Assembly (NCBI GenBank): GCA_037576195.1
Contig: CM075102.1
Coordinates: 25,044,745 to 25,108,744, forward strand
Origin: Phytoseiulus persimilis
Taxonomy: Eukaryota > Arthropoda > Arachnida > Mesostigmata > Phytoseiidae
Direction: 5' to 3'
DNA: 64,000 nt
Shown here: one piece after another, positions 3,001 to 62,517 of the stretch
Layout: each line of letters opens with the position of its first letter
Numbering within the stretch: the stretch's first letter is position 1
The notes under the pieces: model-generated
Database searches by the model: none
What the model was told of the DNA's origin: nothing
Seen by the model: only the letters and a program-made list of their open reading frames with translations
Made by a program: the position numbers and the translations under genes

Positions 3001-3442
3001 GAACACGAATTGGGAACGAGCTATCTTGTACTGAGTCTTACGTGGTTATCGTCCACTTATCGTAGGTCTGCCTGTTCCAGCTCGCATCAACAACGTTCGG
3101 TCGGGGAAGAGAGGAAAGCTCGACTTTCTTCACGCGGGAATACCTTTTACTGACCGGGCTCTGGTGCGAAATATGTTGCCGACTATTCCCGACTTCTATT
3201 CGACATCGGAAAATGCGCAGGAGTCTAGGTCGTCGGGAACCGATGGCGAGAGGGGAGTTTCGATTATGTGGACGATGGAAGACTGCTGTCGACGACGCGA
3301 TGGACCTCCGAGCAGCAGTTTCCAGGATCAGAGGGTCGATGACGAGGTCGAGAAAAGAAAGGAACTCGAGCAAGACAAATTGTGGGAAAATGACCCAAAT
3401 GAAAAGCGATTCCCGAAGGACACCGAAGGACATCGGTTTCCG
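1..3442. other. No recognisable gene
   Basis: Several open frames of 60-156 codons occur on both strands, but none has a domain, a signal peptide or splice-linked neighbours that I recognise. Frames of this length are expected by chance at this base composition. I see no clear tandem or inverted repeat. Confidence 0.6.
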
Positions 3443-35842: not shown

Positions 35843-36773
35843 TCAGAAAAGTTTACAACGTTTCTTTGCTGCGGCCAAACGCTTCTCCATTTCCTCCCTG
35901 GATTTCTTGGCCTTCTTCTCCATTTCAGTTTTCTCCTCCCTTGCGGTCCGCAATTCGCGTTCCAGATTAGTGCTTGAGACTTGAATGTCATTGATTTGCC
36001 TCGTCAACTCTCGTTGCTTGTCCTGAAGCGCACTTACCTTCTGCGCATCTTCCATGTACAGCTCTATCTCTTCGTTTGCATGCTTCAATCCAGTCCGGAG
36101 CTCACGAGTTTCACGGTTGAGGTCTTGGATCCTGTCTTCGAGGTGATCCGTAAAATCGCATCTTCACCACCTAACTTCAACGATTTATTGAACTGGGTGA
36201 GAACGTCATTGAGAACGTCGTCGTGAATTTTTTGAAACTCAGCTGGGGATCGTGGATTATCCGTGATAAGGGCTGTAACTCGTGACTGATACATATCGAA
36301 AGTGCTGTTGACAGCTGCGGAGTTCGTAGCCTCTACAGTTGCCTCGTACAATGTTTTCGGGCTCGGCATCTCGTCACTGCTTAATGCACGTACATAAAGT
36401 TCCATGTGAACGAGGAAGTCGTGACCAGTGAGTTCTTTCCCGTGCACTGTTTTCGGTTTGATGTTGCTCGGCCGAAAGATGTCTTCGATGAAAGATTTCA
36501 TGAGCTGCACGAAACCTAGCTCAATGTCTGTGAGAAAAGCTGACGTCAGCCATCACCACGAGCTGTGAGCAATCGGGCACTCCCGGACTCGAAACTACGA
36601 GGATTTATGTAAAGAACATCTCCATACCCGAAAGTTTTCCTTTGAAGTCATTTGAAGTGGCCACTTTTCCCCCTGGATGGGACATCAGGAAGCATTTCGT
36701 TGATTCGAAGCAATTCCTGATACTATTGCGCATTGCTCCCAATTCTCCCTTCAGCCCAGTTTTCCCGAGTTCC
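35843..36773 (-). pseudogene. Atlastin/GBP-like GTPase copy A, 3' half only
   Basis: Only exons 4 and 5 remain: exon 4 at 36,628-36,773 (146 nt, same length as in the intact copies, encoding CFLMSHPGGKV) and exon 5 at about 35,843-36,537. Exons 1-3, with every GTP-binding motif, are missing; the leader sequence (36,850-36,942) joins directly to the end of intron 3. In exon 5 an internal deletion after GGEDAIL throws the middle domain and coiled coil into different frames (stop at 36,085). The last frame still ends AAAKKRCKLF, a CaaX-type motif. The coiled coil is closest to copy D. It is a pseudogene, or at most a source of short truncated proteins. Confidence 0.85.
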
Positions 36774-37345: not shown

Positions 37346-39845
37346 CTACAAATTCTTGCTCGGATCATCGGTGGATTTTGATGGCTTCCTTCTTGCCGAT
37401 TCAAACGCTCTTCGGAGCATGAAAATATCGTTCAAACTTTCTGGTTTGAGGCTCACGCGGTTTTCGCCGAGGACCATTCGCAAGATGCTGAAGTCCCGTT
37501 CGGGCTGAACGGAGGTCGGCGGTATGGACTCCAAAATCTGATGGCACAATTTCAGGAGGCGGCCCTTACCGCCACCAGCTCGGAAAAGGGCGAGTTCCTT
37601 GTTCAAAGTCTCCTCAACGCAACCCTCACCTTCAATGTCAAGATTGGGGCCAGCCGGAGCTGCAAACACAGAATCCCATGAAAAGGTTGCCTGAAGTGAA
37701 AATGATGCTCTCCTTAGTGTCCGTGATCAACAAGACTTGTGTGATAGAGTGAACTACAACCCAGCTCGGGCAACTCACCGCAGGTTTCATTGCTGCGTTT
37801 GAGCGGCTGGAGCAGGGCATCTGAGCGGAACTCGCGATTTCCGCAAGAACTTGGAGGAGCTCTTCTTCCGATGGTGGTTGTTGCCCTATCGCGGATTCCA
37901 GCTCGAAACCGTATCCTGGGCTGTCCAGTATCGCGAGAGCAGTCGACAGCACTGTTCTGCGTTTCTTAAGTTCCTGTTTGAGACTGTTGAGTAGAGTCTC
38001 AGCCAGAGCTGATTGAGCATTGCGGAGTGCTTCCATCAGATGGGTAAAAACTCTGTCTGCGTGTACCAGCGTCGCTTCCTGGCTGCTGAGAAGGAGTATA
38101 GCTCGCTTGAAGGGATTCAAAGCCTCGGCTATACTCGCCAGGGTCAGCTTGTCTTGGCCACTGATCGGCGTGCCATGCCGGGAGAACACATTGTTCAGAG
38201 CGGGTAGAATGCGGAGCGCCCTCTCAATCATCAGAACTGTCGAATACCATCGTGTCCTGCAATCGAGAATGGGCCGGAGCTCTTTCTTGTTGAACTCATC
38301 TGTTGCGGTCAGTCTTCGGATTTCGTCCATGAGGTTCGGCTTCCGCTTGAAGTCTCGGACTACACGTCGGAGGCGATCTACAACAGCGCCAAGGCAGACT
38401 GTGCCTTGATCTTCACCAATCTGGCGCTGTGGTGGTTCGTCCGTGTCTGTATCCGAATCTTCCTCCCACTCATTGTCAACAACTGCTTCTTCGGACTCCG
38501 GAGCATCGAGGATTCCGACTTCGAAGGCCAAGGCTCCTGTCCCCTGCATGACTTTCCTGACAACAAGATCGAGACCATGGGCGAAGCACTTTTGCTTCTT
38601 CATACCCATGATCTCGACCACTCTGAGGACATTGCTGGCGCTATCAGTGGCGGCTGCAAAAACGTCTTTCGTCAGGAGACCTACAGTCCTGAGTCTCTCG
38701 CGAATCAGGTCGCTCAGATATATTCCTGTAGCTCGGCTCTTCACCCTCACAAGTCCGAGGGCTGCAATGTTTGAATTTCCGAGAATGGCAGATCCATGAT
38801 GAATGTTCACGGTCAGGTAGCGATCCGTTCCAATAACGGTTGCTTCGTCAAATGAGATTGACAGTTTCTGACCTGGAAAGCAACAGACATTTAGTAAATG
38901 TGAAATATTTTTTCGGAAATCGAGGCATATGCATCATGGAAGTTTTTATGGAGAGCCTCGGACCTGTCGAACAAATCTCCTGTAATTTGATGCGTAGCTG
39001 GTTCCGGAGTACTTCTGCATCTTCGCGGAGATAGCTCGTTAACGTGGACCCCGATTTAGGCAGAGGTGAATCACAGGGGTAAGCTCGATTGAACAGCCTT
39101 CTCAATGTCTCGGAAGAGACGATCTGTCTCATACTGATATTGGTCTCGCAAATTAACCTCAGTACGTCACTCCTCATGCTATGCTCGGGATTGAAGAAAA
39201 TGTCTATCGGAAGCTGCTTTTTTTTCTTTGTCGGCTCCATAGGCTGCTCCTGTTCCATTTCTTGTGAAGATGGCTCATCGAACATCTGATGGAACTCCTG
39301 CCTTGAAGAACCTGCACGAGGGTTGTCCTGGGGGAAGATTGCATGAGCCACCCTCAAGTGCTTCATTAATGGACTAGTGGATCTCCCATTCTTCAGTACC
39401 TACAACAAGATTTGTCAATGACGAAAAAGAGAACGTTAGTGATGGAATAAAAATCCGAGAACCCCAAAATCTTCAATGATCCTCCGTTTGGAGGATAGCA
39501 AGGTTCGGATCGTAAGCCCTTCGCGATAATGCACATGATTCTACATTCCGCTTATTGCCCCGGATAGAGGCTCCGGATAGAGGAGCCTCGTCCGAGCCTC
39601 CGTCGATCCCGTTGACAGCGAGCCGAAGTTTCCGGTTGGCGCCATGTTGTAGTCAAATAAATGAGCTACACTTGGAGGCCAAAGCCTACTGGGCTCGGAA
39701 AAACAGCCAAAATTCCCTACCCAATTTGACTACCCTGTGCATGCCTACCTGAAGGCACTTGATGCATTTGGCGGTCCCAGCGCCCTTCCGGAAGTATTGC
39801 CAGACCCAGCTTGTGTTTTTTTTTTGGCTCCCTGAAGTTATCCAT
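37346..39845 (-). CDS. hAT1 transposase, BED-finger type, four exons
   Basis: Predicted exons (minus) are 39,749-39,845, 38,964-39,399, 37,779-38,872 and 37,346-37,659, with GT-AG introns. Exon 1 to exon 2 rebuilds a BED zinc finger: SWVWQYF, CIKC, then HLRVAH. Exon 3 begins LSISFDEATVIGTDRYLTVN, the usual start of the hAT catalytic core. It runs through FAAATDSASNVLRVVEIM (second catalytic region) and DCRTRWYSTVLMIERAL. Exon 4 has PPTSVQPERDFSILRMVL, the dimerisation domain. Two defects are visible. The ATG at 39,845 is in frame with the finger only if the run of ten A's after it were nine. The simplest exon 3-exon 4 join is one base out of frame. Without these it would be about 645 aa. It may be recently inactivated, or the defects may be assembly errors. 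Confidence 0.85.
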
Positions 39846-46153: not shown

Positions 46154-46159
46154 TTTATT
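46154..46159 (-). terminator. Poly(A) signal of copy B
   Basis: AATAAA on the minus strand, 48 bp beyond the stop codon of copy B. Copies C and D do not show a perfect hexamer at this place. Confidence 0.5.
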
Positions 46160-46206
46160 GTATGATGACTTGGATAGGACTGGAAAGCTCGTAATGAGCT
46201 CATCCA

Positions 46207-48255
46207 TTAGAAAAATATACAGTTTTTCTCTGCTGCGCCGCAACGCTCTGCCATTTCAGTCAAAGATTTATCAGTCTTTTCCTGCGTTTCCCTAATCGCC
46301 TTCCTCGTCATCTCCACTTCGCGTAGCAGATCTGTGTTTGTAATTTGAATGTCACCGATTTGGCTCATGAGGTTATGTTGCATGTCCTGAAGCGCCTCCA
46401 TCTTCTGGGCGTCCTTTTCGAGTCTTTCTTTATCCTCCTCTGCTTTCTTCAATACTTTTCGGAGCTCCAGGGTCTCACGGTCGAGGTTTCGTATCTGGTC
46501 TTCGAGGTGGTCCGTGTGCCCTCGAAGAGCTTCAACCTGACCCTCGAACTGCTTCTTATCCCACGCCGCGGTATTAGCAAGTTTCCAATGCTTCTCTGAG
46601 GCATCGATTCGTGCTTTCAGTTCTCTCAATGCCGTCGAAATGGCAACTTCACCACCCATTTTCAACGATTCATTGAAGTTGGTGAGAACTTCGTTGGAAA
46701 CGTCGTTGTGGAATTCTTCAAACTCAGCCGGGTCTCGTGGATCTTCCATGACAAGGGCCGAAACCCGTGATTGATACATTCCGACAGCTCTGTTGACAGC
46801 TGCGAAGTTCGTAGCCTCTACTGTTGCCTCGTACAATGTTTTCGGGCTCGGCATCTCGTCGCTGCTCAATGCACGTACATAAAGTTCCATGTGAACAAGG
46901 AAGTCCCGAGCAGTGAGTTCTTTCCCGTGCACTGTTTTCGGTTTGATATTGCTCGGCCGGAAGATGTTTTCGATGAACGATTTCATGAGCCCTACGAAAC
47001 CTGGTTCAATGTCTGCGGAAAGAGGTGTCGTCATTCATCACCACGAGCTGTCAGCGATTCCTCACTCTCAGGAATCGGAAAAACAGGAAGTGCTATGAAG
47101 ATCATCTTCATACCCGAAAGTTTTCCTTTGAAGTCAGTTGAAGTATCCACTTTCTTCCCTGGATGGGACATCAGGAAGCATTTCGTTGATTCGAAGCTGT
47201 TCTTGATATTGGTACGCATTGTTTCCAGTTCTCCCTCCAGCCCAGTTATCCCGAGTGTCCTGCAGACGATCGTCATGGGAATGATTTCGGGCAACAGAGT
47301 GATTTCATGAGTCTGAACATAGCGTTGGATAAATGCGGACGTTGAATACAGCACTCGAAACTCACTCATTCAGTAGTTTCTGACCTCCATCCCAACCGAA
47401 CGGCATTTCGCCTGGATACGCCCAGTCTCTCACTAGGAATACAAGCTCTTGGAACGGTTTTGGTTCGCTTCGAGAATGGTTCTCGGGGTTTTGAGAGTGA
47501 ACGAGGCGACCAAACTCCACGAACAGTTCCAGAGAACTGAGATCGTCACCTTGAATGTTCTGCTTCACGTTGAATATTTGTATTGAAGAAAGCAGCACAC
47601 TCAGCGAAAACACAGACGTACAGCCTCCGACGGTCGTCTGGGTGTCAAAAATTCCTTGAGTATCCATTAGGATGACGTTGATTTCCTCTCCAGAGGCGCT
47701 CGTAATCTGGAGGACAGTATCGCTTCATCTAATCCATCAAGATGCCAAGCAGCGAAGGGAAGTTGTCAAAGGCCACTCCAGGACACAGGGCGTAGTGGAC
47801 TCTATGTTCGAATGAATGCTCTCCAGTTTTCCAAATCAAACCTTGAAAATCTCGGGCCAGATGAGCACGCCGAGCGTGACGCGATTCCTGGTATGTCTCC
47901 AGTCAAAACCCGTGAGCATCTCCCCAGCTCCATCTTCTAGCCATCGGCTCGCACCTTTCGCCCTCAAGTACCTTGCGGAATGGCAAGTCTGATCAGTTGT
48001 ATTCGGCAGGAACATCGTTCGCAATATTTGTTCACACGTTCCTCGTCGGCTGAGCGAGGTTCTGGCTGTGAGATGTCACTGCGCTCACCTGATGATGAAG
48101 TTCATCAGAAAGCTCTTACCCTGGCGGTAACGTCCAGCAATAGAAATCACGGAAAGTTTCCGATTCAGGTCGTCCTTTGAGAGCAGCTCTAGCACACGAG
48201 AGGCTTCAGTGGTGCAGTCCTTGCCGGGTTGGAAAACGCGGATTGGAGCGAGCAT
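46207..48255 (-). CDS. Atlastin/GBP-like GTPase copy B, 529 aa, CaaX end
   Basis: Exons (minus): 48,089-48,255, 47,842-47,971, 47,366-47,706, 47,114-47,259, 46,207-47,012; all introns GT-AG, 1590 nt in frame. Residues 41-48 are the P-loop GRYRQGKS, T88 lies in switch I (RVTLGVLIW), 114-117 is DTQG and 192-193 the RD guanine motif, followed by CFLMSHPG and the middle-domain string YEATVEATN. This order is that of the GBP/atlastin family of large GTPases in the dynamin superfamily; the short N-terminus before the P-loop is GBP-like. From about residue 412 to 520 the protein is a charged heptad-rich coiled coil. No transmembrane hairpin is present. The last four residues are CIFF, a CaaX-type motif ending in Phe, predicting geranylgeranylation and membrane attachment. 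The start ATG is chosen because an in-frame TGA lies 21 bp upstream and the same ATG is kept in C and D. Confidence 0.9.
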
Positions 48256-48299
48256 CTTTGAAACAAAGAAACACGATCAGAACGATGGGAACGGTGGCG

Positions 48300-48440
48300 A
48301 CACTGGAAGCTCGGTCGGGGGTGTCGTTTTCGATTCTTCCAAGAACTTCCCTGCGACGAGCACGAGTGAAGAGACGACACTGCACGCGTCACGTGTGTGG
48401 CCACTCGCCGTCGAGAGCTGGGACAACAGGATCCGTGCAT
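48300..48440 (-). promoter_or_regulatory. Shared leader of copy B (holds the hAT2 target site)
   Basis: This block is kept upstream of the start codon in copies A-D. It contains the uninterrupted GTGTGTGGCCACTCGCCGTC; in copy C the same GTGGCCAC is duplicated around hAT2. A homologous stretch lies in front of the hAT1 transposase. Whether it is 5' UTR or promoter cannot be told. Confidence 0.5.
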
Positions 48441-48504
48441 GATACTCTGCGTGCTCCTCATGTGCATAGTGATCCTCCATCGCCTTCATTGTAGAAAAGT
48501 CCCT

Positions 48505-48870
48505 TCACGATATCATGGTGACTTCCTCCAGCATTCTGGTGTCATCCGCCTCTGAGCGACTCGAGGCTGGATCCGTTCTTTGTCTGCTGAGCTCATATGA
48601 GATCATGGGAACCAGGTGAGAAGCGGAAGCTTGATTAGAAATCGGAGCGAATAGTTTATTCAATATCCTGATTCCGGGAGCCGGGGCAAACTGACAGAGA
48701 ACTGAGCATTCGAGAAATTCCACATCCTTTCCAAGAGTTATTGGCCGTTCCCGAAGCTTCCCTCGTATCTCCCCCTCAAACTTTCCGTAGTCGTCACTAA
48801 GCTTCCTGATTCGGTCCCTGAAGGCATCTTCAGATACCGCAAGCTTCGGGTCTTCCGCTCTGAACCATTT
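48505..48870 (-). other. Conserved upstream block of copy B with open frame
   Basis: About 110 codons stay open and aligned between copy B (this block) and copy C (54,249-54,610): both have DAFRDRIRKLSDDYG, then GEIRGKLRERPITLG, and end MLEEVTMIS before the same stop. Copy D keeps only pieces (62,820-63,010). No start codon is conserved and I do not recognise the protein. It lies 250 bp upstream of the GTPase start. It may be an upstream exon, a separate small gene or non-coding sequence that stayed open by recent duplication. Confidence 0.35.
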
Positions 48871-49339
48871 CTCGTTTCACGCTGAAGGATAGGCAGACTT
48901 GAAGTATTTGATGCAGAATCATACATGGTTTAATCGGAGACCGCGGATTTCCGTCGAGCTCCGGTCGCTCTTCTTCAGAGCAGAGGGTTTCAAACGTTCC
49001 AGAAACGTTACTCGTTCAATATCCCGGTTAGAGTATAGAGTGCCGAAGAATATCAACATGAGTCCAAAATGAACGAGCCAAAGTTGCAACAAGGTCTCGT
49101 AAAGCGAACGTCCCTGGGAAGGCGCCGAAACACTCGTCGAGATATGTCGACTGCTACCTGACAGCGGGTCAGTTGACAGAAATATTCCTGAGAAGCGACC
49201 CTCTCTCCCACAACTTAAGAAGTCTCCGTGACGGCTTCCTGACCGTCGTCTCCGTGCAATGATCGATATATTCCAGTGAAGCTGATGGGTTCGTAGAAAT
49301 ATTCTGCACCCGAATATCCAAAGCTGGAGTTCCGGCCTG
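48871..49339. other. Spacer between copies B and C
   Basis: No gene identified. Part (to about 49,020) matches the upstream flank of copy D at about 63,060-63,215, marking a common duplicated unit edge. Confidence 0.4.
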
Positions 49340-49551
49340 ATTCATCTCAAGCTACTTTTTGACCTCTGCGGAATTCGAAACGCAGACGGCTGCGTCGTAA
49401 AAGTTTCGAAGACTCGGGAACTCGCCGCTAAGCAGTTCACTGACACAGGTCCGGACGGAGGGAAATGCGGACCGTGACGTCCGATCCATCGACCATTTTT
49501 CGGTCGAACTTGGTAGGTCGGAAGGTGTCCCCTATGAGAGTATACAGGTGC
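49340..49551 (-). pseudogene. Old atlastin/GBP-like remnant C''
   Basis: In two minus frames this short stretch encodes IGDTFRPTKFDRKMVDGSDV and, after a shift, ELLSGEFPSLRNFYDAAV with SNSAEVKK. These match IEDIFRPSNIKPKTVHGKEL, DEMPSPKTLYEATV and TNSAAVNS of the intact copies. Only part of exon 5 remains. It lies upstream of the duplicated 3' flank of copy C in window coordinates, so each intact gene has an older remnant downstream of it. Confidence 0.6.
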
Positions 49552-49941
49552 CTCCCGAGATTCGGTTGACGTCTGCGATCTCATCTCCTCTGAGTGCTCC
49601 TTGCTATTGGCTATATTCAGATACGAGGATTTTCAACGAGCGCCAATGTCAACTCTTCTATTCAAAAGTATGTCACCCCCATCTCAATCGTGTAGGTTTC
49701 CTCCAGTGTAAGACCATTCTCCGACCAATTGTGTCCGTTCTTGGGGTCAGCTGTTCATTTGTGATCTTCCAAATGAATAACGTCCTAAACCTCATCATCT
49801 TCGCGACATTCATACACCCCAAAGGCGACTTCCATCCCTTCATATTCAAGTTCAAGGACATGAGAATGTATATTTTTTTGCATTGACTTGGGTTACCTTT
49901 TGACAGCTACAGTCGAATATGAAGTTTTAGTAATTGCATCA

Positions 49942-52170
49942 TTAATTTTGCCTCGACTTGACCTGGCCCAGAAGGCTCACCGCTGCAGACACGACGATGG
50001 CTCCAACTCCGATCATTCTAGATAAAAACGTTGGTCTCTCTGCGTCGGCCAAGCGCTGCTCCATTTCCCTCCTAGATCTCTCGGCTTTTGCCTCTATTTC
50101 AGCTCTCTCGCTCCGTGCGTCAATCAATTGTTGTTGCAGATTAGAGTTTGAAACTCTGATGTCGTCGATTTGACTCATCAAGTTTTTTTGCATGTCGTCA
50201 AGCGCCTGCATCTTCTGCGCGTCCTTTTCGAGTCTTTCTTTATCCTCCTCTGCTTTCTTCAATTCTGTTCGGAGCTCCAGGGTTTCATGGTCTAGGTTTC
50301 GTATCTGGTCTTCGAGGTGATCCGTGTGCCCTCGAAGAGCTTCAACCTGACCCTCGAACCGCTTCGCGTCCCACGCCGCGGTATTAGCAAGTTCAAAATG
50401 ATGCTTCGAGGCACCGATTCGTGATTCCAACTCTCTCAATGCCGTCGAAATGGCAACTTCACCACCCATTTTCAACACTTCATTGAAGTTGGTGAGAACT
50501 TCGTTGGAAACGTCGTTGTGGAATTCTTCAAACTCAGCCGGGTCTCGTGGATCTTCCATGACAAGGGCCGAAACCCGTGATTGATACATTCCGACAGCGC
50601 TGTTGACAGCTGCGGAGTTCGTAGCATCTACTGTTGCCTCGTACAATCTTTTGGGGCTCGGCATCTCGTCGCTGCTTAATGCACGTACATAAAGTTCCAT
50701 GTGAACAAGGAAGTCCCGAACAGTGAGTTCTTTCCCATGCACTGTTTTCGGTTTGATATTGCTCGGCCGGAAGATGTCTTCGATGAACGATTTCATGAGC
50801 CCTACGAAACCTGGTTCAATGTCTGCGGAAAGAGGTGTCGTCATTCATCACCACAAGCTGTCAGCGGTTCGTCACTCTCAGGAATCGGAAATACAGGAAG
50901 TGCTGTGAAGATCATCTTCATACCCGAAAGTTTCCCTTTGAAGTCAGCTGAAGTATCCACTTTCATCCCTGGATGTGACATCAGGAAGCATTTCGTTGAT
51001 TCGAAGCTGTTCTTGATATTGGTACGCATTGTTTCCAGTTCTCCCTCCAGCCCAGTTATCCCGAGTTTCCTGCAGATGATCGTCATGGAAATGATTCCTA
51101 GCAACAGAGTAATTTCAGATATGCTCGCGGGAGATTTCTGAGCATAGGGCCATGCGTCGCATGAAGCCGCCGGCACTTCTGAAGTTTGTGATACGACGTC
51201 CTCAAAAACCGTCGTCACCGAACTTCTCTTGACATAGCGTTGGATGAATGCGGACGTTGAATACAGCACTCGGAACTCACTCATTCAGTAGTGTCTGACC
51301 TCCATCCCAACCGAACGGCATTTCGTCTGGATATGTCCAGTCTCTCACTAGGAATACAAGCTCTTGGAACGGTTTTGGTTCGCTTCGAGAATGGTTCTCG
51401 GGGTTTTGAGAGTGAACGAGGCGACCAAACTCCACGAACAGTTCCAGAGAACTGAGATCGTCACCTTGAATGTTCTGCTTCACGTTGAATATTTGTATTG
51501 AAGAAAGCAGCACACTCAGCGAAAACACAGACGCACAGCCTCCGACGGTCGTCTGGGTGTCAAAAATTCCTTGAGTATCCATTAGGATGACGTTGATTTC
51601 CTCTCCAGAGGCGCTCGTAATCTGGAAAACAGTGTCGCTTTATCCAATCCATCAATATGCCAAGCAGCGAAGCGAAGTTGTCAATGGCCAATCCAGGAAA
51701 CAGGGCGTAGTGGACTCTATGTTCGAATGAATGCTGTCCAGTTTTCCAAATCAAACCTTGAAAATCTCGGGCCAGATGAGCACGCCGAACGTGACGCGAT
51801 TCCTGGAGTGTTCCCAGTCAAAACCCGTGAGCGTCTCCCCAGCTCCATCTTCTAGCCATCGGCTCGCACCTTTCGCCCTCAAGTACCTTGCGGAACGGCA
51901 AGTCTGATCAGTTGTATTGGGCAGGAACATCCTTCGCAATATTTGTTCACACGTTTCTCGTCGGCTGAGCGAGGTTCTGGCTGTGAGTTGTCACTGCGCT
52001 CACCTGATGATGAAGTTCATCAGAAAGCTCTTACCCTGGCGGTAACGTCCAGCAATAGAAATCACGGAAACTTTCCGATTCAGGTCGTCCTTTGAGAGTA
52101 GCTCTAGCACACGAGAGGCTTCAGTAGTGCAGTCCTTGCCGGGTTGGAAAACGCGGATTGGAGCGAGCAT
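49942..52170 (-). CDS. Atlastin/GBP-like GTPase copy C, 554 aa, C-terminal membrane anchor
   Basis: Exons (minus): 52,004-52,170, 51,757-51,886, 51,281-51,621, 50,924-51,069, 49,942-50,822; GT-AG introns, 1665 nt, no stops. The GTPase half is nearly identical to copy B, with the same P-loop GRYRQGKS, switch-I Thr, DTQG and RD motifs. The middle domain is also close to B. The coiled coil (about 412-525) diverges, and the tail is different: no CaaX motif, instead a hydrophobic run near 530-547 (IGVGAIVVSAAVSLLG) followed by a short basic tail. This would make C a tail-anchored protein, in contrast to the probably prenylated B and D. Introns and flanks are so like B that recent duplication or gene conversion is likely. 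Transposon hAT2 lies 149 bp upstream of the start codon and may have altered its promoter. Confidence 0.9.
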
Positions 52171-52776
52171 CTTTGAAACAAAGGAACACGATCAGAACGA
52201 TGGGAACGGTGGCGACACTGGAAGATCGGTCTGGGGTGTCGTTTTCGATTCTTCCAAGAACTTCCCTGCGACGAGCACGAGTGAAGAGACGACACTGCAC
52301 GCGTCACGTGTGTGGCCACTAGGCTTTGCAGCGGTTATTTAACCGCGGTTAATAACCGCGAATAATTTGCGGTTATTAACCGCAATAACCGCGAGAGAAT
52401 GGCGGTTATAGCCGCATTCAACCGCAATTTTCAACCGAACTCAAAATCGAGGGTTTATCTTATCTGACAAGCATATGATTGTTCGGGAAAGCGTACCATC
52501 TGATGAGCATACTCAGGAGGACTGAGATCTGAAATTAGGCGCTGATATTTGAACAGAGATGAACCGACAGACGTGAAAGATGCTCTCAGCATTCCAGCTC
52601 GGCTCAGCGGATGTGCAGAGACAATGCTCCGCGGAAATGTGATCTAATGATATTTGAGCTGAACTGTTGGGAATAATGAGACGATCGACTCTGCTCGGCA
52701 TATTTGGTTTGCTCGCCGACCTAGTGACATCTTGTGTGATGGCTCCCGTTGAACGAAGTTCTTATAAGGTTCCGAA

Positions 52777-53080
52777 ATGAAGACTCGACCAGCAATCATT
52801 CCTGGAGATCTCACAAATCACCTGCAGCCTCTTGATGTTTCCATTAACAAGCCGCCCAATGACTCCATGAGAGAGCACTGTACGCGGTGGACTCAATCTT
52901 CCAGACAGAAGGTCTACGCATCCGGTGAGATCGAGAAACCAAGCACAGTGAAAGTACTTATTATGTGCGTCGCACCCGCATGTTAAGGCGTCCATTGAAG
53001 AATCGTGATGGAGTCCTCCAAGATAACGGGGATCTCTGACGGTCGGGCACAGCAACGATGATCTCAGTGCCGAAAGCAGC
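52777..53080 (+). pseudogene. DDE_1 (pogo-like) fragment in hAT2
   Basis: The frame starts MKTRPAIIPGDLTNHLQPLD and continues SINKPPNDSMREHCTRW. This is the DDE_1 end-of-domain signature, closer to consensus (IIPG, INKP) than the hAT1 version. It stops at 52,985 but recognisable sequence (ITGIS) continues in frame beyond. Confidence 0.7.
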
Positions 53081-53539
53081 GACTTGGAGTCCGAGAAAGC
53101 TGCGAGCTGCTCGAGGGAGGACATTCAGGAGGACATTGACAGTTTGAGACTGATTCCCAAATAAGTACAAGGGAATCAGGACATCGAGAAATCTGAGAGC
53201 AACGCGGGAGGTTAGATCCGAAGTTTCTGACTATATTCATCGGATGGGAGGCTCTTCGATACAAGTGATCTACGTCGTTCTAGATTATGCAATTGTTTCG
53301 AAAATTTCGTGACTTGCAGTTAGGCTTCGCATCGGTTATTCCACCGCGAGCTATCGAGAACGTATCTCGGCGACTCACAGGAGCAACATTGAAAATGTTC
53401 CACTTCCAGGAAAACATCTCATGGGATTCCATTTACGAGCCTCCCGGATCTTTCGCAACTGCAGGAGCCGCGATCGACAGAAGACTGAACTCGGCAAGAA
53501 CTCAGGCTTCATAAAGCCGGGGGCGATCATGGCCGTCTT

Positions 53540-53760
53540 CTCGACCGATGCCTGAAAGCTTCTTCGGGAATCCCGCAGACATCCGTACAGGCCGAAAGAG
53601 ACTTCAGTTCGGTTCGATTCTTGTCTGGGGCAACCGTGCGAGTATGAAACCGAGCACCCTCGACCATATATTCTTCTTGCGGAAAGCATTCCCGAACGAA
53701 CTCTTGTGAAGCGAAAATTGTGTTACAGAGAACCAGTCTCTCCACCATGTGCCGCAGTCG
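53540..53760 (+). pseudogene. hAT transposase C-terminal fragment in hAT2
   Basis: Across a frame shift this encodes IPQTSVQAERDFSSVRF and then SMKPSTLDHIFFLRKAF. The hAT1 exon 4 protein has IPPTSVQPERDFSILRM and SLKPESLNDIFMLRRAF. hAT1 and hAT2 therefore belong to one family. Confidence 0.8.
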
Positions 53761-54248
53761 TTGTGTACATATATTGTACAGTATCTCTTACAAGCTGATG
53801 CTTTCTTAACGTTAATCATAAACTTCCCTTGGGCAAGGTTGCTTCACTAAAAAGCATACTCACGAGTTCGTCCCGTCGTATTTCTGCCTATTTTTGCTTC
53901 ATCTATGCCGAAGATATGGGGTGGGGCTTCGGAAAACTGAGTTGTCGGTTCTATGTCCATTGAATCATCTGGTTTCCGACGTTATCGCTATGAAACTCAT
54001 TGCAAAATATCCCAGCCATGCCCAAGATCACTCTCTGAATGGCTTGCGGTTATTTGCGGTTATAACCGCGGTTATGAGGTTGCGGTTATCGGTTAACCGT
54101 AACCGCGGTTATTTAAAAATGCGGTTATATGCAAAGCCTAGTGGCCACTCGCCGTCGAGAGCTGGGACAACAGGATCCGTGCATGATATTCTGCATGCTC
54201 CTCATGTGCATAGTGATCCTCCATTGCCTTCATTATAGAAAAGTCCCT

Positions 54249-54610
54249 TCACGATATCATGGTGACTTCCTCCAGCATTCTGGTGTCATCCGCCTCTGAG
54301 CGACTCGAGGCTGGATCCGTTCTTTGTCTACTGAGCTCATATGAAATCATGGGAACCAGGTGAGAAGCGGAAGCTAGATTAGAAATCGGAGCGAATAGTT
54401 TATTCAATACCCTGATTCCGAGAGCCGAGGCAAACTGACAAAGAGCTGAGCATTCAAGCAATTCCACATCGTTTCCAAGAGTTATTGGCCGTTCCCGAAG
54501 CTTCCCTCGTATCTCCCCCTCAAACCTCCCGTAGTCGTCACTAAGCTTCCTGATTCGGTCCCTGAAGGCATCTTCAAACACCACAAACTTCGGGTCGCCC
54601 GCTCAGAACC
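54249..54610 (-). other. Conserved upstream block of copy C
   Basis: Counterpart of 48,505-48,870; the frame is open to the stop at 54,249. It is now separated from the copy C gene by hAT2. See the copy B entry for details. Confidence 0.35.
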
Positions 54611-54727
54611 ATTTCTCGTTTCACGCTGAAGGATAGGCAGACTTGAAGTACTTGATGCAGAATCATAACTGGTTTAATCGGAGACCGCGGATTTTCGTCA
54701 AGCTCCGGTCACTCTTCTTCAGAGCTG

Positions 54728-55591
54728 AGCATGCAACCGCCGGCACTTCTGAAGTTTGTGATACAACATCCTCAAAAACCGTCTTCACCGAACTTTTCTG
54801 GACGTAGCGTTGGATGAATGCGGACGTTGAACTGAATACAGCACTCGAAACTCACTCATTCAGAAGTTTTTGACCTCCATCCCAGCCGAACGGCATTTCG
54901 TCTGGATACGCCCAGTCTCTCACTAGGGATACAAGCTCTTGGAACGGTTTTGGTTCGCTCCGAGAATGGTTTCCGGGGTTTTGAGAGTGAACGAGGCGAC
55001 CTAACTCCACGAACAGCTGCAAAGAACTGAGATCGTCACCTTGAATGTTCTGCTTCACGTTGAATATTTGTATTGAAGAAAGCAGCACACTCAGCGAAAA
55101 CACAGACGTGGAGTCTTTGATGGACGTCTCGGTATCGAAAATTCCTCGAGTATACATTAGGATGACGTTGATTTCCTCTCCAGAGGCGCTCGTAATCTGG
55201 AGGACAGTATCGCTTTATCCAAACCATCAAGATGCTAAGCATCGAAGCAAAGTTGTCAAAAGCCACTCCGGGACACAAGACGTAGTGGGCCTTTCGCCCT
55301 CAAGTACCTTGCGGAATGGCAAGTCTGATCAGTTGTCTTCGGCAGGAGAATCGTTCGCAATATTTGTTTACACGTTCCTCGTCGGCTGAGCGAGGTTCTG
55401 GCTGTGAGTATTCACCGCGCTCACCTGATGATGAAGTTTATCAGAAAGCTCTTACCGTGGCGGTAACGTCTAGCAATAGAGAACTCGGGAACTTTCGAAT
55501 CCAGGGCTTCCTCCGAGAGTAGCCTTCACAATTGAGAGGCTGCATCAAGGCAATCGTTGCCAAGTTGACAAACACGGATTGGATCGAGGAT
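54728..55591 (-). pseudogene. Atlastin/GBP-like GTPase copy C', truncated
   Basis: Exon 1 (about 55,435-55,591) has lost its ATG (ATC instead) and contains an in-frame TGA; the P-loop reads RRYRHGKS in place of GRYRQGKS. Most of exon 2 is deleted. Exon 3 (54,856-55,196) is complete and open with DTRGIFDTE-like sequence (MYTRGIFD; the DTQG box has become YTRG). Exons 4-5 are absent. Within intron 3, near 54,728, the sequence switches to the upstream flank of copy C through a short GAGCAT match, so C' looks like the product of unequal recombination. Confidence 0.85.
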
Positions 55592-56138
55592 TTTTCAACA
55601 CGGAACCAACCAGCGTCTTCGATCGCGAGTTCTCTGCTCGCAAAATTGCGTGTCGGTGCAGCGAAAATTGGTTCTCGAGAAGTCAAGCGGGCAAATTAGC
55701 CTGTTTCGCAGTCTTAACGCGACTCTCTACTTTACCAAGAAGCCGCTTAAGCTACATGATCCCAATGATCGGGAATAGAGGTCGCCGAATGCTGAAGGCT
55801 CTGTTTCCGAACTTCTCCACTCCACCCTCGGATGCTCAACGACCTGAGTCGAAGTTCCGTTTCGGCATTCCCGCACCGAGCGCATTCTCGAGCTCCTGGC
55901 TGAATCCGAGGAAACGTGGAAAACAAATGCTACCTCGGGAAACGCTGCTCGGATTCTCTCCCGGATAACGGAGAAATTGAGGCCCCTCAGGAGGCGAATT
56001 CTGCGAGATCGTCTCTTCGGCAAACTTTGCGTCTCTGCATGGACCAACCTGCGGCATTTTCGTATTCTTGGACCTGAATCCGAAGCTCACTGAAACTCAT
56101 GAAATGTCCCTATGATAAGCAGCCCACTCGCTCTAGTC
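55592..56138. other. Upstream flank of copy C'
   Basis: Paralogous in part to 41,427-41,700, as noted there. Frames at 55,579-55,968 (plus) and 55,727-56,090 (minus) are open but antisense to each other and not conserved. Confidence 0.4.
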
Positions 56139-56880
56139 CAGGGGTTCCCAAACTTTCTCACCGTAATGACCCCTGTGCAATTTTCTAAGCTCGTGTAGAC
56201 CCCCAACTAGTATGAGCCTCAATAACTTAAATTCAGGCTTTACGAGGATTAAATTGGAGGTCTCTCTATTGGGCGTAATTCAGATATGGTGGTACGTGTT
56301 CTCACTGAGATGTGTTTACTTGATGTAACGAAACCCCATTCTTCGAGGTTTGTCCTGGAGCGGTGATCAGCCGCAGACCGCCACGTTCAGGGTTGGCCAT
56401 CATTTTTCTGGTCTTGATAACAATATTGACTACTGCATTGAAGCCTCTCTCTGCCAGATATGAGGATGGAGAAGCGATGAAACACCTTCTCGCGAACGCG
56501 CATAGTCATGAAGATGTACGTGGTCAATGTGGACCGTCACGGAATTCAGAGATTGAGTTTCTCCTTTTTGCCAGCGGTAGTTGGCGCTGAAACCGATTGG
56601 GGTTGAGAGTTGCTGCTTTTCACCCCCGAAAGGTTCCGCATTGTGCATTTGAGTGGTTCGAGATACTCGTCCTCGAAATATTTAGCCTGACTCATGTATT
56701 TGTGCGGGTCGCAGTGTAACTCTTCCAATACACAGGCAGTTGCACGTCTCCGTTTGCCGTTCTGCTGCCTCTCCGATAGCATTTGCCTCGGATTGTCGAG
56801 CGCTGGAAGAACTACGAGCGGCTGAGTAATTGCGAAAATAATGGTAACAATCATCGTGGCTCATTTAACAGCTAAGACCC
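56139..56880 (-). mobile_element. hAT (Charlie-like) transposon remnant
   Basis: The left end at 56,139 is CAGGGGTTCCCAAACTTTCT, the typical 'CAGGGGTTCCCAAACTTT' terminus of Charlie-type hAT elements. On the minus strand 56,302-56,460 encodes LAERGFNAVVNIVIKTRKMM, then RGGLRLITA, and LHQVNTSQ before a stop: the C-terminal dimerisation domain, in the right orientation relative to that end. The stretch 56,546-56,854 carries the dispersed repeat shared with 27.6 kb. The right terminus is lost. The element interrupts the unit spacer, compared with 41,690. Confidence 0.7.
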
Positions 56881-57426
56881 TGCAGTTCGCTAACTTGCCT
56901 TCATCAGCCATACGCACTCAACGAAGGGTGGACCCCGGATGTCTCAGCCGGAGAAGAGGGACCGTGAAACGGTACGCGGACAAGAGGTGAGGGGATCCCG
57001 ACAACATCAACAAACCGATGATGGGAACCCAGTCATCGATCCCGTCCCCTTCGCACCAGGAGGTGTCACGGGACCTACAGCAACTGTACCCGAACTGACC
57101 CTGCGATGATCTCTCTGAACCGAGCGACGAGTCGGACTCACGGTATAGAACCACCGGACGGGAGATGTGGTAAGGAAAGTACTCTCAATATCCCCTCCGA
57201 GAATATTTAGAAGCTCTCATCTGTAGAGACAGCACGATCATACCAGAAAGCTACGAGAGAGATTCTCCACATGGCAAAATCCTGCTCAGGGTGAAAATCT
57301 GAGTCTGTTTGCGTTCACGAGTGGATGGTGCGTAACAACTCCGACGGCAGCCAAACAGTAGAAAATGTCACGTGATATTTACATTTATCGCTGCTCCGGT
57401 GGGTGGGCTTTTGCTGAGCTCTAGTC
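56881..57426. other. Unit spacer, no clear gene
   Basis: Paralogous in part to 42,060-42,200. A minus frame at 56,918-57,154 matches in part the frame at 42,059-42,244 ('LLRLRH'), without a known domain. Confidence 0.4.
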
Positions 57427-57815
57427 ATGTATTTCAACAGTTTAGCAGAGCTCAACTTTCCCACCGCTCCGCCGAAAGATTGGGTCGTCAACAAGTCCGT
57501 GCGGTTTTCCACACGAAATTCTACCCTCAAAGAACATGGATTTCCCCAGGGGGACTCGATCCCGTCGACCGGTATGATTTCTTGTTATACTGACGATTCG
57601 AATTCCACTCCGTTTAATGTTCCTGCTAATTTGACCTCGAAGCCACTCATTGCTGAGTGTTTCCGTCAGATGGTCGTGATGATGCCTGGGAGAGCTGGAG
57701 TGGCTGCGGCGAGATTCGTTCGACAGCTTTCCCTCGAAGAATCCATGAGCGGTGGCGAAGTTGAGGCATATATGCGCAGTCAGCCTCCCTGGCGTGACAA
57801 CGAAAATCTCCCATG
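57427..57815 (+). pseudogene. Paralogue of the 44,065-44,709 ORF, split by a transposon
   Basis: The plus frame aligns with the second half of the copy at 44,065-44,709 (ANLTSKPL, CFRQMVVMMP, VEAYMRSQPPWR). It is cut at 57,816 by the Mutator-like insertion. The remainder continues after it, from 59,017 to the stop at about 59,181. No function assigned. Confidence 0.35.
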
Positions 57816-59025
57816 ATAATGAGTAGGGCTGGACGTTCATCGCGACATTTTGACCGGGAATTCGAGGGCGCCGCGAAATCTAGAGCGAATGTTGTAGAGG
57901 ATGGGGTAGGCACAATTTATCGTAGCCAGCAACCCACCAGAACAGTGAGAACTTATATTTGTTCCCAATTCTCGACAAACGAGAACTCCGGGTATGATTA
58001 CACGAGACGAGTATCAAAAGATGAAGCTGATTTTTTTTTTTTTTTCACAGAAGTCCTTCTCTTTTTTTTTTAATTGTGAACGTCCAGAGCTTAAGACACC
58101 CTATATTATCAAATTGACTAAGCTAATCGTCTCGCGCCTATCTCTCTAAGACGAGAGCTCCAGATGTGGCCCGCGGTAGGATGCCATGGTCCCCATAACC
58201 GCGGCCGCGTTGCCTCGCTGTACATCGATTGACAGACGCTGCAAAAGGAACTCCCGCGCCCGCCTACAACCTGTTGCTTCTTCGATCATCTGGCCGACCG
58301 TGTTCAGGAGCGTTCTCGTCTGCGGCCCGGGTCCGCCGAGCGTCTCGAAGGCCAGCGGTGCAACCAAGTACGCAGCGGCCAGTTCGCTGTACTTTTGGAG
58401 TTTTTTGGCCTCAGCCTTTGCGCTTGCAGCTCCCGGGGTGATGCTGCCGGCGTCGACATATGATGGGGCTAGAGTGTCGACAACCGTTGCATCCCATACG
58501 AGGGCTTTTCCCCTCTCGAATGGTATTAGCGTCATCCCGTCCGGTCGCCTCCCGTCGTTCCGGCACATTCCCTGCGGCTCTCTCAGGTTTGGCACCTGGG
58601 CGCTTCGGAGCGCGCGGCTGAATGTTTCGTTGATTTGAGAGTGGCGAGACCACCTGAACCACCACTGAAGCTGATTGTTCTGATATCCCAAATTGTTCAT
58701 TGAGAGGTTGCCGCCCTTCATCGAGCGTCTGTCATCGCGTAAAACACCGTCATATTGATTGCCATGCTCGGACACACAAGAGTTATTTCGGAGAACTCCG
58801 CCGATTCCTCGGCCGATAGCTCTCATTATTTTTTTTCTCTGGGGAATCGGGTCTCTCGATGCCACGGAACGGTTGGAGTAGGATATTTTTCCGACTTCCA
58901 CGAAAATTTCAGCAAAATTTCATCGTCAAAAGTGTGTCGCCATAGCAAGCCGAAATTCGCGGGAGGTAGAACATTCCGAGGGAATTCAAGGATTTCGCGA
59001 GAAACGTCCAGCCATAATAATGAGT
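57816..59025. mobile_element. Mutator-like non-autonomous element with 9-bp duplication
   Basis: ATAATGAGT is present at 57,816-57,824 and 59,017-59,025; the paralogous unit has it once (44,548-44,556), so the insertion is exact. The element (57,825-59,016, 1192 bp) has inverted ends: left GGGCTGGACGTTCATCGCGA, right in reverse complement TGGCTGGACGTTTCTCGCGA. A 9-bp duplication with such ends suggests the Mutator superfamily. It carries no transposase but contains a LINE tail. Confidence 0.8.
58031..58901 (-). pseudogene. 5'-truncated LINE tail inside the Mutator-like element
   Basis: A 251-codon minus frame ends at 58,146. It contains RRPDGMTLIPFERGKALVWD, then TVVDTLAPSY, then APLAFETLGG and RLSIDVQRGNAAAVMGT. 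This is a C-terminal domain found after the reverse transcriptase in many LINE-like polyproteins, often with 'RPDGLTLxPW' and 'ISIAxQRGNAAAVxGT'. Two A-runs (T-runs at 58,031-58,044 and 58,062-58,071 on the plus strand) after the stop suggest its poly(A) tail. The reverse transcriptase itself is absent. The frame is unbroken, so the copy is fairly young. Confidence 0.75.
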
Positions 59026-59169
59026 GAGGAGTTTCCCTGCCGAACATCCTCAAAATACGGAGTTCGCCCTGTCAGTGAAAGAATCCGTGGCTGCGGATCC
59101 TTGGCACAGAATCCTTGGAGAAGCTTGGTTATCGGGGGGATGGGTTGTCGGACGATCGGGCTTTCCCAA

Positions 59170-60125
59170 GATCACACATCGTGATCGTCTCGGTCGAACG
59201 GGCAAAGACATGGATTCGCTCCTCGAGATCGTTCTGCAACTCGAAAAGCTCGTGAATCGTCTTCGAGTCCGCTAGAGATTCTGCTCTTTTTCTGCTTGAG
59301 CCGCTCACCCTCTGAGCTCTCCCTTGGGTCCACCAACGGGTTCTCTAAATTCGTTCTTGAGCCCATTTGACGTCTCCGAGAAGTCGCCAATGGCTGCTCT
59401 TCGCCACAGCAAGGAGTGTTGAAGTTTTTCTAAAAAAGCCGGCTCCTTCTGGTCGTCTATACCCAGAGCTGCGGCTGATAGCTTCCAGAGTTCCTGATGG
59501 CCTCTGTAGAGTTCGTGGCATTGAAATAGGCGTCCTCCATGTTTCCAGAGCATCCATGCATCTCAAAGATATGGGACCCCACGCGAACGAGGAATTCGTG
59601 AACAGCGAGTTCCACCGTTGCGCTCTTTTCTTTAGAGGTTGCTAGGCCGGTTCAAAGAACGAGTTCCTGTCAGCGAAGCCGACAGTTGAAAGCTTCCCAG
59701 CCAAATATCAAACCACCGTGACTGTTTTTCGAATAATCAACAGATTGAGAAAATATACGGTATGCATGTCAACTGGAGAAGGTTGACAGCGCTGTGTTTC
59801 GCGAAGTCACTTCAGCTTCCCGACAAGTTCTGAGGCACCCGGGGAGAAACCGGCAGGGGGCGAGAAATAACGAATGATTGGATTCGAGATCTTAGCATCC
59901 CGACTGCTTCTCGTAGGCAATCATTTGCTCGAATTGAAGTTGGCACCGTGCTTAAGCATCTCTCGTTGACCACGGTGTTGTGGGGGGGTCGACGAAGCGC
60001 TTTCAGAGTCCGTTCACATCGCACGATGGATTTGATTCGGAAGACTCCAGAACTGGAGCCATCGAGCCATTGAGTCGAAAACGTACTCTGTATTTCTCCG
60101 GTGCAAAAACTTGCTCCATATCTCA
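59170..60125 (-). pseudogene. Old atlastin/GBP-like remnant D'
   Basis: Downstream of copy D the minus strand encodes, in mixed frames, ATVELAVHEFLVRVGSHI, then YFNATNSTEAIRN, SYQPQL and EPAFLEKLQHSLL. These correspond to KELTARDFLVHMELYV, EATNSAAVNS, MYQSRV and DPAEFEEFHNDVS of the middle domain. Stops and shifts interrupt it throughout. Blocks match A' and B' in the same order, so the remnant was duplicated together with the younger gene. Confidence 0.65.
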
Positions 60126-60361
60126 GCTATTTGTGTTGTATTTGTGACCACAAACCCTCCAAATTCATAACGTTCCGAACCGCATCATCTTCGCGACATT
60201 CATAGACCCTGAAGGCCACTCCCATTCCATCGCATTTGAGTTCTTGGATGTTCTCCGGTCGGAAGAAGGATCCCCTCCGCGAGCGAGGAAAATTTGAGAC
60301 CAAATATTTTAATGTATGCATGACTTGAACAGGGCTGGAAAGCTCTTAAGGATTTCACCCA

Positions 60362-62517
60362 TCAGAAAATTACACATCTTCCTTCTGCCGCGGCCAAACG
60401 CTCCAGCAGTGACTTCACAGTTATCTCGGCCTTCTTCTCCATTGCAGCTCTCTCCTGCCTTGCGGTCAGCAATTCGCGTTGCAGACTCATGTTAGAAGCT
60501 TGGATATCACTCAATTGACTCTGGAAGATTTTTTGCATTTCCTGTAGCTCCTTTATTTTCTGCGTATCCTCCTTGAATAGTTCTTTCTCCTTCTCTGCAC
60601 GCTCCAATCCAGTTCGGAGCCTCACGGTTTCACAGTCGAGTTCTTGAATCCGGCTTTCGAGGCCTTTCGTCAGGTCTCGAAGAGTTTCAAGCTGAACCTC
60701 GATCTGTTTTTTTTCCCACGCCGTGGTATTAGCAAGTTCCCATTTCTGCTTTGAAGCAGCGATCAGTGATTTCAACTGTTTCAATGCCGTCGAAATCGCA
60801 ACTTCACCACCCATTTTCAACGATTCATTGAAGTGGCTGAGAGCGTCGTTGGAAACGTCGTCGTGGAATTCTTCAAACCCAGCCGGGTCTCGTGGATCTT
60901 CCATGATAAGGGCCGCAACCCGTGATTGATACATACTGAAAGCGCTGTTGACAGCTGCGGAGTTCGTAGCCTTCACTGTTGCCTCGTACAATGTTTTCGG
61001 GCTTGGCAAACCGCCGCTCCTCAAGACACGCACGTAAAGTTCCGCGTGAACGAGGAAGTCCCGAAGAGTGAGTTCTTTCCCGTGCACTGTTTTCGGTTTG
61101 ATATTGCTCGGCCGAAAGATGTCTTCGATGAACGATTTCATGAGCCCCACGAAACCTGGTTCAATGTCTGCGGAAACAGGTGTCGTCATTCATCACCACG
61201 AGCTGTCAGCGATTCGTCACCCTCAGGAATCGGAAATATAGGTAGTGCTGTGGAGAACATCTCCATACCCGAAAGTTTTCCTCTGAAGTCAGCTGAAGTA
61301 TCCACTTTCATCCCTGGATGTGACATCAGGAAGCATTTCGTTGATTCGAAGCTGTTCTTGATATGGGTGCGCATTGTTTCCAGTTCTCCCTCCAGCCCAG
61401 TTATCCTGAGTTTCCTGCAGATGATTGTCATGGAAATGATTTCTGGCAACAGAGTGATTTCAGATATGCTCGCGGGAGGTTTCCGAGCATATGGCTATGA
61501 GTCGCATGAAACCGCCGACACTTCTGAAGTTTGTGATACAACATCCTCAAAAACCGTCTCCACCGAACTTTTCTGAACACAGCGTTGGATAAAGACGGTC
61601 GTTGGACGGAATACAGCACTCGAAACTCACTCATTCAGAAGTTTCTGACCTCCATCCCAGCCGAACGGGATTTCGTCTGGATTCGGCCAGTCTCTCACCA
61701 GGAACAACAGCTCTTGGAACAGTTTCCGTTCGCTTCGAGAATGGTTCGCGGGGTTCTGAGAATGAACAAGGCGACCAAACTCCACGAACAGTTCCAGAGA
61801 ACTGAGATCGTCACCCTGAATGTCCTGCTTCATGTTGAATATTTGTATCGAAGAAAGCAGTACACTCAGCGAAAACACAGACGTACAGCCTCCGACGGTC
61901 GTCTGGGTGTCAAAAATTCCTTGAGTATCCATGAGGATGACGTTGATTTCCTCTCCAGAGGCGCTCGTAATCTGGAAAACAGTGTCGCTTTATCCAATCC
62001 ATCAATATGCCAAGCAGCGAAGCGAAGTTGTCAATGGCCAATCCAGGAAACAGGGCGTAGTGGACTCTATGTTCGAATGAATGTTCTCCAGGTTTCCAAA
62101 TCAAACCTTGAAAATCTCGGGCCAGATGAGCACGCCGAGCGTGACGCGATTCCTGGTGTGTCTCCAGTCAAAACCCGTGATCTCCCCAGCTCCATCTTCC
62201 AGCCATCGGGTCGCACCTTTCGCCCTCAAGTACCTTGCGGAATGGCGAGTCTGATCAGTTGTATTCGGCATGAGCATCGTTCCCAATATTTGTCTTCTCG
62301 TTCCTCGTCGGCTGAGCGAGGTTCTTGATGTGAGTTGTCACTGCGCTCACCTTATCATGAAGTTCATCAGGAAGCTTTTACCCTGACGCGAACGTCCAGC
62401 TATAGAAATAACGGAAACTTTCTGATTCAGGTCGTCCTCTGAGAGTAGCTCTCGCACACGAGAGGCTTCAGCAGTGCAGTCCTTGCCGGGTTGAAAAACG
62501 CGGATTGGAGCGAGCAT
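60362..62517 (-). CDS. Atlastin/GBP-like GTPase copy D, 528 aa, CaaX end
   Basis: Exons (minus): 62,351-62,517, 62,107-62,233, 61,631-61,971, 61,269-61,414, 60,362-61,167; GT-AG introns, 1587 nt, no stops. Exon 2 is one codon shorter than in B and C. Residues 41-48 are GRSRQGKS; DTQG, RD, CFLMSHPG and the middle domain are kept. The coiled coil (from about 410) is the most diverged of the three and resembles copy A. The protein ends AAAEGRCVIF, so the last four residues, CVIF, form a CaaX-type motif with terminal Phe. The same GTPase module with a changed coiled coil suggests a different partner or target. The shared leader lies upstream (about 62,610-62,700). No perfect AATAAA is found behind the stop. 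Confidence 0.9.

Follow-up and report, generated by a model that had tools for sequence, protein, structure and literature searches.

Atlastin-descended GTPases with a predicted helical stalk and putative tip anchors in an arachnid gene array

A tandem array of atlastin-family GTPase genes lies in a 64,000-nucleotide (nt) stretch of the Phytoseiulus persimilis genome (the window: C2 25044745-25108744, in a genome of 181 Mb and 127 contigs; contigs are labelled C1-C3 below). Its three full paralogues, copies B, C and D, appear to have exchanged the two-pass membrane hairpin of atlastins for a single long alpha-helix, a stalk tipped by a small anchor. This anchor would be a CaaX box in B and D (once also in the broken copy A), probably prenylated by farnesyltransferase (FT) and/or geranylgeranyltransferase I (GGT1); in C it would be a hydrophobic C-terminal segment. 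GTP-driven dimerisation of the heads and a crossover of the middle domains, as in atlastin and GBP1, would bring the stalks together, and the anchored tips could then tether or coat a membrane in a GTP-dependent manner, by means other than the atlastin hairpin. We consider this the best explanation of the array, with a confidence just short of even; expression, prenylation, target membrane and tether or coat action are what we infer for B, C and D.

Stalks and C-terminal ends

Copies B, C and D each have five exons on the minus strand when spliced at conserved sites. Their introns are GT-AG in 12 of 12 cases, with phases 2, 0, 2 and 1 in each gene. The GTPase domain (PF02263) scores 204, 201 and 196 bits in B, C and D, respectively, and its motifs are intact: GRYRQGKS (GRSRQGKS in D), T-x-G, DTQG and LVRD. 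A reading made earlier from the letters of the window (the sequence-only reading) had described three complete paralogues in a tandem family with broken copies, and the spliced models, together with the broken copy A and a broken relic at 54855-55591, bear this out. The same reading took the source for an arthropod, in agreement with 112 Chitin_bind_4 matches in the genome.

Over the whole of B and D, no 19-residue Kyte-Doolittle window reaches 1.6. In C, windows of at least 1.6 occur at the very C-terminus (maximum 2.03) and, marginally, inside the G domain (1.68); past the G domain, the C-terminus is the only such site. At the hairpin position, the three hairpin atlastins of the same genome reach 1.97, 1.74 and 1.79. 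The proposed loss of the hairpin is therefore real here, but it is not peculiar to the array, because hairpin loss in arthropods was already known: BmAtlastin-n of the silkworm Bombyx mori is a hairpin-less, cytoplasmic protein with a coiled coil, and silkworm atlastins 3 and 4 are likewise without transmembrane segments (PMC4926086; papers given by PMC number are cited for parts of their text).

After the middle domain, B, C and D carry a stalk of ~125-130 residues, longer than the ~110 first estimated. Its coiled-coil character is supported by a heptad contrast that shuffles matched in 4/300 (B), 0/300 (C) and 7/300 (D) cases. We modelled B's last exon with AlphaFold2 (14 sequences in the alignment; mean predicted local distance difference test score (pLDDT) 85.7). 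In this model the last helix of the three-helix bundle continues over positions 121-266, a length of 146 residues or, taking 0.15 nm for each residue, ~22 nm, mostly at pLDDT > 90. The model of copy C has the same helix up to position 260, with an uncertain end (pLDDT < 50). Both are single-chain models, silent on the pairing of stalks. We conclude that one long predicted helix takes the place of the hairpin in B, C and D.

Directly before the stop, B ends in CIFF, D in CVIF and broken A in CKLF, exactly as had been noticed. The Cys codon is TGT and the final Phe codon TTC in all three, with K, I or V at a1 and L, F or I at a2. As a check on chance, we scanned 1497 stop-ended window frames of at least 30 residues: 12 are CaaX-like at the end, and the four that end in C-x-[AVILMFT]-F are A, B, D and an unrelated 36-residue frame. 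CVIF is the CaaX box of R-Ras2/TC21, a substrate for FT and GGT1 alike, and GGT1 prefers mainly Leu and Met (PMC1175975). The earlier suggestion that a terminal Phe favours GGT1 thus has to be widened to either enzyme. Judged by its motif, copy D is probably prenylated; for B the same is likely, with less assurance than for D. The genome holds three prenyltransferase-beta-like loci.

B and D might instead be cytosolic proteins like BmAtlastin-n, their CxxF ends incidental and unprenylated. BmAtlastin-n is indeed cytoplasmic and without transmembrane segments (PMC4926086), copy C has no CaaX box, and the a2 residue of CIFF is aromatic. We nevertheless judge this distinctly unlikely, as few window frames end in C-x-hydrophobic-F and the CVIF motif is proven in TC21 (PMC1175975).

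Copy C, a full gene that the sequence-only reading had not singled out, ends differently, and the CaaX box is accordingly a feature of A, B and D rather than of a uniform family. Two alignments place a one-base difference between C and the copies A, B and D immediately ahead of the CaaX codons, and past these a 21-base insert in C. The frame of C then continues across sequence aligned to the 3' untranslated region of the other copies, and ends in FLSRMIGVGAIVVSAAVSLLGQVKSRQN. C matches the others poorly at this point (0.43 to B in one block of 100 columns; 0.62 and 0.72 further downstream), so the exact indels are less certain than the difference in frame. Because the frame of C is shifted to a hydrophobic end, one array holds two kinds of predicted C-terminal anchor, CaaX (A, B and D) and a hydrophobic segment (C). 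Either end may be the older one: a hydrophobic tail later replaced by CaaX, or CaaX by a hydrophobic tail.

Onward splicing of the last exons of B and D to a further membrane exon would alter this picture. Poly(A)-like hexamers argue against it for these two copies, since AATAAA sits 47 nt past the stop of B and ATTAAA 48 nt past that of D. Neither hexamer occurs within ~120 nt past the stops of C and A.

Descent from atlastin

B, C and D carry an atlastin-type GTPase and a three-helix-bundle middle domain. In phmmer searches against PDB sequences, Atlastin-1 scored 283 bits (E 3.5e-83, residues 24-399) and the best GBP 56.5 bits (E 2e-14). Foldseek with the model of B's last exon returned atlastins at ranks 1-26, with GBP1 first at rank 27. 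The GBP C-terminal family (GBP_C, PF02841) scores 18.9, 18.4 and 24.5 bits in B, C and D, which puts D narrowly over the cut-off of 24.3; since one of the genome's own hairpin atlastins passes too (26.8 bits), this score fails to separate the families.

Gene structure points the same way. Introns 1, 2 and 4 of B, C and D share position and phase with the genome's own hairpin atlastins, and so provide evidence for descent from atlastin. Intron 3 is present in B, C, D and a relative, E, elsewhere in the genome, and not in the hairpin atlastins, which have one more intron, missing from all four.

Our main tree contained 34 proteins, 28 of 96 database proteins (P0001-P0096) and six from this genome; E was omitted for its long branch. 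B, C and D formed a 100/100 clade on the atlastin side. Forcing them together with animal GBPs (P0088, P0092 and P0045) was rejected, at 137 log units worse (approximately unbiased test, p-AU 1e-46). Placement at the base of the GBP branch was 2.2 log units worse (p 0.29), with ten canonical atlastins 3.2 worse (p-AU 0.129), and with the genome's own hairpin atlastins 8.2 worse (p-AU 0.216). Three constrained trees were better than the free tree: with a tick clade (by 4.45 log units), with P0077 (3.5) and with P0077 plus P0080 (4.1); BmAtlastin-n was absent from the tree. Taken together, the search scores, the shared introns and the rejected GBP grouping support the proposed atlastin ancestry: by descent B, C and D are atlastin-side proteins and not animal GBPs.

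CaaX-like ends are present in three of the 96 database proteins (P0052, P0077 and P0080; some entries are partial), and in no named arthropod protein among them. The eukaryote proteins P0077 (CCIM) and P0080 (CSIM) are atlastin-side and combine such ends with charged helical tails, so stalk plus CaaX is not confined to this genome. The combination could be old on the atlastin side and shared with these two proteins, the hairpin atlastins being derived. The trees that join P0077, or both proteins, to the window copies fit that idea, as do the long charged tails; but the tree with the hairpin-less tick clade is equally good, the branches are long, introns 1, 2 and 4 are common to hairpin atlastins, and the named arthropod proteins offer no CaaX-like end. 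We regard an old stalk-plus-CaaX form as improbable. Three protein searches, which yielded 100 proteins and of which two scored just the 7997 candidates with most shared words, returned no close orthologue, the top identity to B being 45%, for P0071 and, over 37%, for P0097.

Three hairpin atlastins are encoded in the same genome, at C3 4.49-4.52 Mb. The stalked paralogues, which share their head and middle domain, might regulate these atlastins through mixed head dimers, tethering or restraining fusion of the endoplasmic reticulum with no role in defence. Copy B is only 39% identical to the one own atlastin aligned, which makes mixed dimers uncertain, and several broken copies are more what one would expect of a family in turnover than of a stable regulator. 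Regulation of this kind is unlikely in our estimate, although it is the strongest of the alternatives to stalked GTPases with a tip anchor.

A genome-wide PF02263 search gave 21 exon-level matches, which we assigned to the window copies (8), the three hairpin atlastins (10), and E, a relic F and a relic on C3 (1 each). No GBP-type locus is evident among these 21; the search scores the best candidates, and further relics may exist. Relative E is solitary and truncated (C2 ~20016748-20019463; L013 1749-4464), and its introns are those of the window copies. Its P-loop has another residue in place of the lysine (GTSRQGRS), G3 reads DSSG, and a stop follows directly after the three-helix bundle. 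It may neither hydrolyse GTP nor have an anchor; in a quick tree of 55 rows it took no firm position. Relic F (C1 ~32.860-32.865 Mb; L016 ~1040-5660) has stops and missing parts and, by eye, a hydrophobic frame near its end. The C3 relic, of exon 3 (~5.0145 Mb; L014 3549-3773), looks by eye nearer to the relic at 54855-55591 than to the full copies.

Divergence within the array

The motor and the stalk have diverged to different extents. For the G domain, the middle domain and the stalk in turn, the rate of synonymous substitution (dS) between B and D is 0.169, 0.163 and 0.387, and the nonsynonymous rate (dN) is 0.043, 0.095 and 0.41; between B and C, dS is 0.034, 0.055 and 0.383. Every pair among B, C and D has a higher density of synonymous differences in its stalk than in its core (Fisher p 5e-10 for B-C, 0.0025 for B-D and 0.0004 for C-D). 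The introns of B, C and D are 88-98% identical, except that intron 3 is 65-78% identical to that of B, where its length differs. Kimura two-parameter (K2P) distances for the stalk are 0.466 (B-D), 0.369 (A-D) and 0.426 (A-B), and for the 3' flank 0.194, 0.203 and 0.257, with 95% intervals separate from those of the stalk. The simplest reading is that gene conversion homogenised the motor of B, C and D and left out the stalk. Selection for differing stalks is possible, and so is the alternative that the stalks are simply little constrained and unconverted.

Several observations weigh against the explanation that we prefer. Copy C shows that the family can do without CaaX, and its modelled end falls below pLDDT 50. 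The 102-residue stalk alignment of A, B and D, free of indels, has 32 invariant columns, and the Cys at -4 and the Phe at -1 account for just two of these, so that it says little that both are kept within the array. The protein searches returned no close orthologue for a comparison of CaaX across species. The dN/dS ratio is 0.64 for the B-C G domain, 0.54-0.63 for the middle domain and 0.68-1.06 for the stalk, and relaxed constraint therefore fits as well. Intron 4 of A has a K2P of 0.357 to D and 0.393 to B, and the stalk values are no higher; the B-D 5' flank (400 nt) has 0.332 (0.26-0.41), which overlaps the stalk interval (0.38-0.59). Thus the stalk rate need not exceed neutral, and positive selection on the stalk, which we considered, is not favoured. 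Fast change, as first proposed, applies to the stalk among B, C and D, and does not extend to A, whose stalk is no more diverged than its intron 4.

Some of these values would suit a decaying array, in which duplicates drift under relaxed constraint with no distinct function. The relics within the window and on C3 and C1, stalk dN/dS of 0.99-1.06 for C-D and B-D, and the similar divergence of A's stalk and intron 4 are in its favour. It is hard to reconcile with three full reading frames that keep every splice site and GTPase motif, with G-domain dN/dS of 0.26 (B-D) and 0.29 (C-D), and with a stalk that aligns across A, B and D without an indel; we give it little probability. The array looks like a birth-and-death family.

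The features of the locus are collected in Table 1. Copy A lies outside the range first described (46207..62517), and a deletion (between 36154 and 36151) disrupts its reading frame. Upstream of it are hAT-type transposase frames (37346-39399, minus strand), with PF05699 (Dimer_Tnp_hAT) at E 8e-6 in one of three frames scanned. Short AACCGC/GCGGTT-type repeats stand beside copy C (52351-52425) and the broken relic (~54020-54140, by eye).

Table 1. Features of the array, in window coordinates
Feature	Position	Strand	Basis
Copy A, broken, exons 4 and 5 only, last frame ending CKLF	35843..36769	-	
AATAAA hexamer 3' of B stop	46154..46160 (approximate)	-	
Copy B, full gene, 529 amino acids, CIFF end	46207..48255	-	spliced exons
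Copy B exons	48255-48089, 47971-47842, 47706-47366, 47259-47114, 47012-46207	-	
Copy B stalk (from ~residue 400) and CaaX codons	46207..46604	-	
Copy C, full gene, 554 amino acids, without CaaX, C-terminal hydrophobic segment	49942..52170	-	spliced exons
Copy C exons	52170-52004, 51886-51757, 51621-51281, 51069-50924, 50822-49942	-	
Copy C end where CaaX would be, shifted frame and 21-base insert, hydrophobic	49942..50034 (approximate)	-	
Broken relic, sequence of exons 1 and 3 only	54855..55591	-	
ATTAAA hexamer 3' of D stop	60308..60314 (approximate)	-	
Copy D, full gene, 528 amino acids, CVIF end	60362..62517	-	spliced exons
Copy D exons	62517-62351, 62233-62107, 61971-61631, 61414-61269, 61167-60362	-	

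Comparison with known systems

The nearest precedent is BmAtlastin-n. Like B, C and D, it is an arthropod atlastin-family GTPase with a coiled coil and, like B and D, it has no transmembrane segments; its authors placed it with atlastins and reported no GBP in the silkworm genome (PMC4926086). It differs in its length of 770 residues, in a main text where 'caax' occurs 0 times, and in an antiviral effect shown there (PMC4926086). This effect in a hairpin-less coiled-coil atlastin lends support to stalked, anchored GTPases as we propose them. Taken alone, a defence role of the array is possible but doubtful in our assessment.

Canonical atlastins, the genome's own three included, share with B, C and D the GTPase, the three-helix bundle and introns 1, 2 and 4. 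They differ in the hairpin, where the window copies instead have a stalk and either CaaX or one C-terminal hydrophobic segment. Four further tick and beetle proteins, P0010, P0016 (Amblyomma), P0029 (Ornithodoros) and P0018 (Tribolium), are hairpin-less with an atlastin-side GTPase and, by eye, a charged helical region. They resemble copy C in having a single hydrophobic stretch that lies at the C-terminus or close to it (1.94, 2.57, 1.61 and 1.83, respectively); unlike B and D, they have no CaaX end, and their identity to B is 32-40%. P0077 and P0080 resemble B and D in GTPase, charged helical tail and CaaX-like end, and are 34% identical to B. Among gall midge atlastin-like proteins, P0014, P0020, P0028 and P0073 have a hydrophobic N-terminal leader that looks signal-peptide-like by eye; secretion of a large GTPase would be unusual, and the leader may instead be an annotation error. 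Among the papers listed for atlastin together with CaaX, titles and abstract openings gave no report of a prenylated atlastin. The CaaX end is the new part, hairpin-less coiled-coil atlastins having been known before.

Vertebrate GBP1, GBP2 and GBP5 share with B and D the order of parts: a GTPase head, a helical middle domain, an extended helical C-terminal part and CaaX. They differ in that the head and middle domain of B, C and D are atlastin-type, and the tree grouping with animal GBPs is rejected. The C-terminal helices of GBPs are folded back, whereas B has one continuous predicted helix. B, C and D may well work in a GBP-like manner, with a GTP-driven head held off a lipid-anchored tip. 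A bolder extension is that a prenyl-anchored, membrane-coating defence GTPase like GBP arose a second time, from atlastin, in a GBP-less arthropod; gene conversion would keep the motor uniform while stalk and anchor diversify, and a one-base frame change would exchange CaaX for a hydrophobic end. We think this unlikely in its entirety, though not negligible.

B, C and D have a motor in common but not a stalk or an anchor, which makes them a ready-made set for asking which part decides membrane choice. A 2022 review asked whether atlastins took over defence in invertebrates that lack GBPs (PMC9005921), and the array offers a usable test of atlastins in GBP-like roles where GBPs are absent. According to a 2024 structural paper, GBPs are unique among dynamin-like proteins in their need for isoprenylation, and an extended helical effector domain is their other hallmark (PMC11746146). 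Copies B and D appear to place both hallmarks, the isoprenyl signal and the extended helical domain, on the atlastin side.

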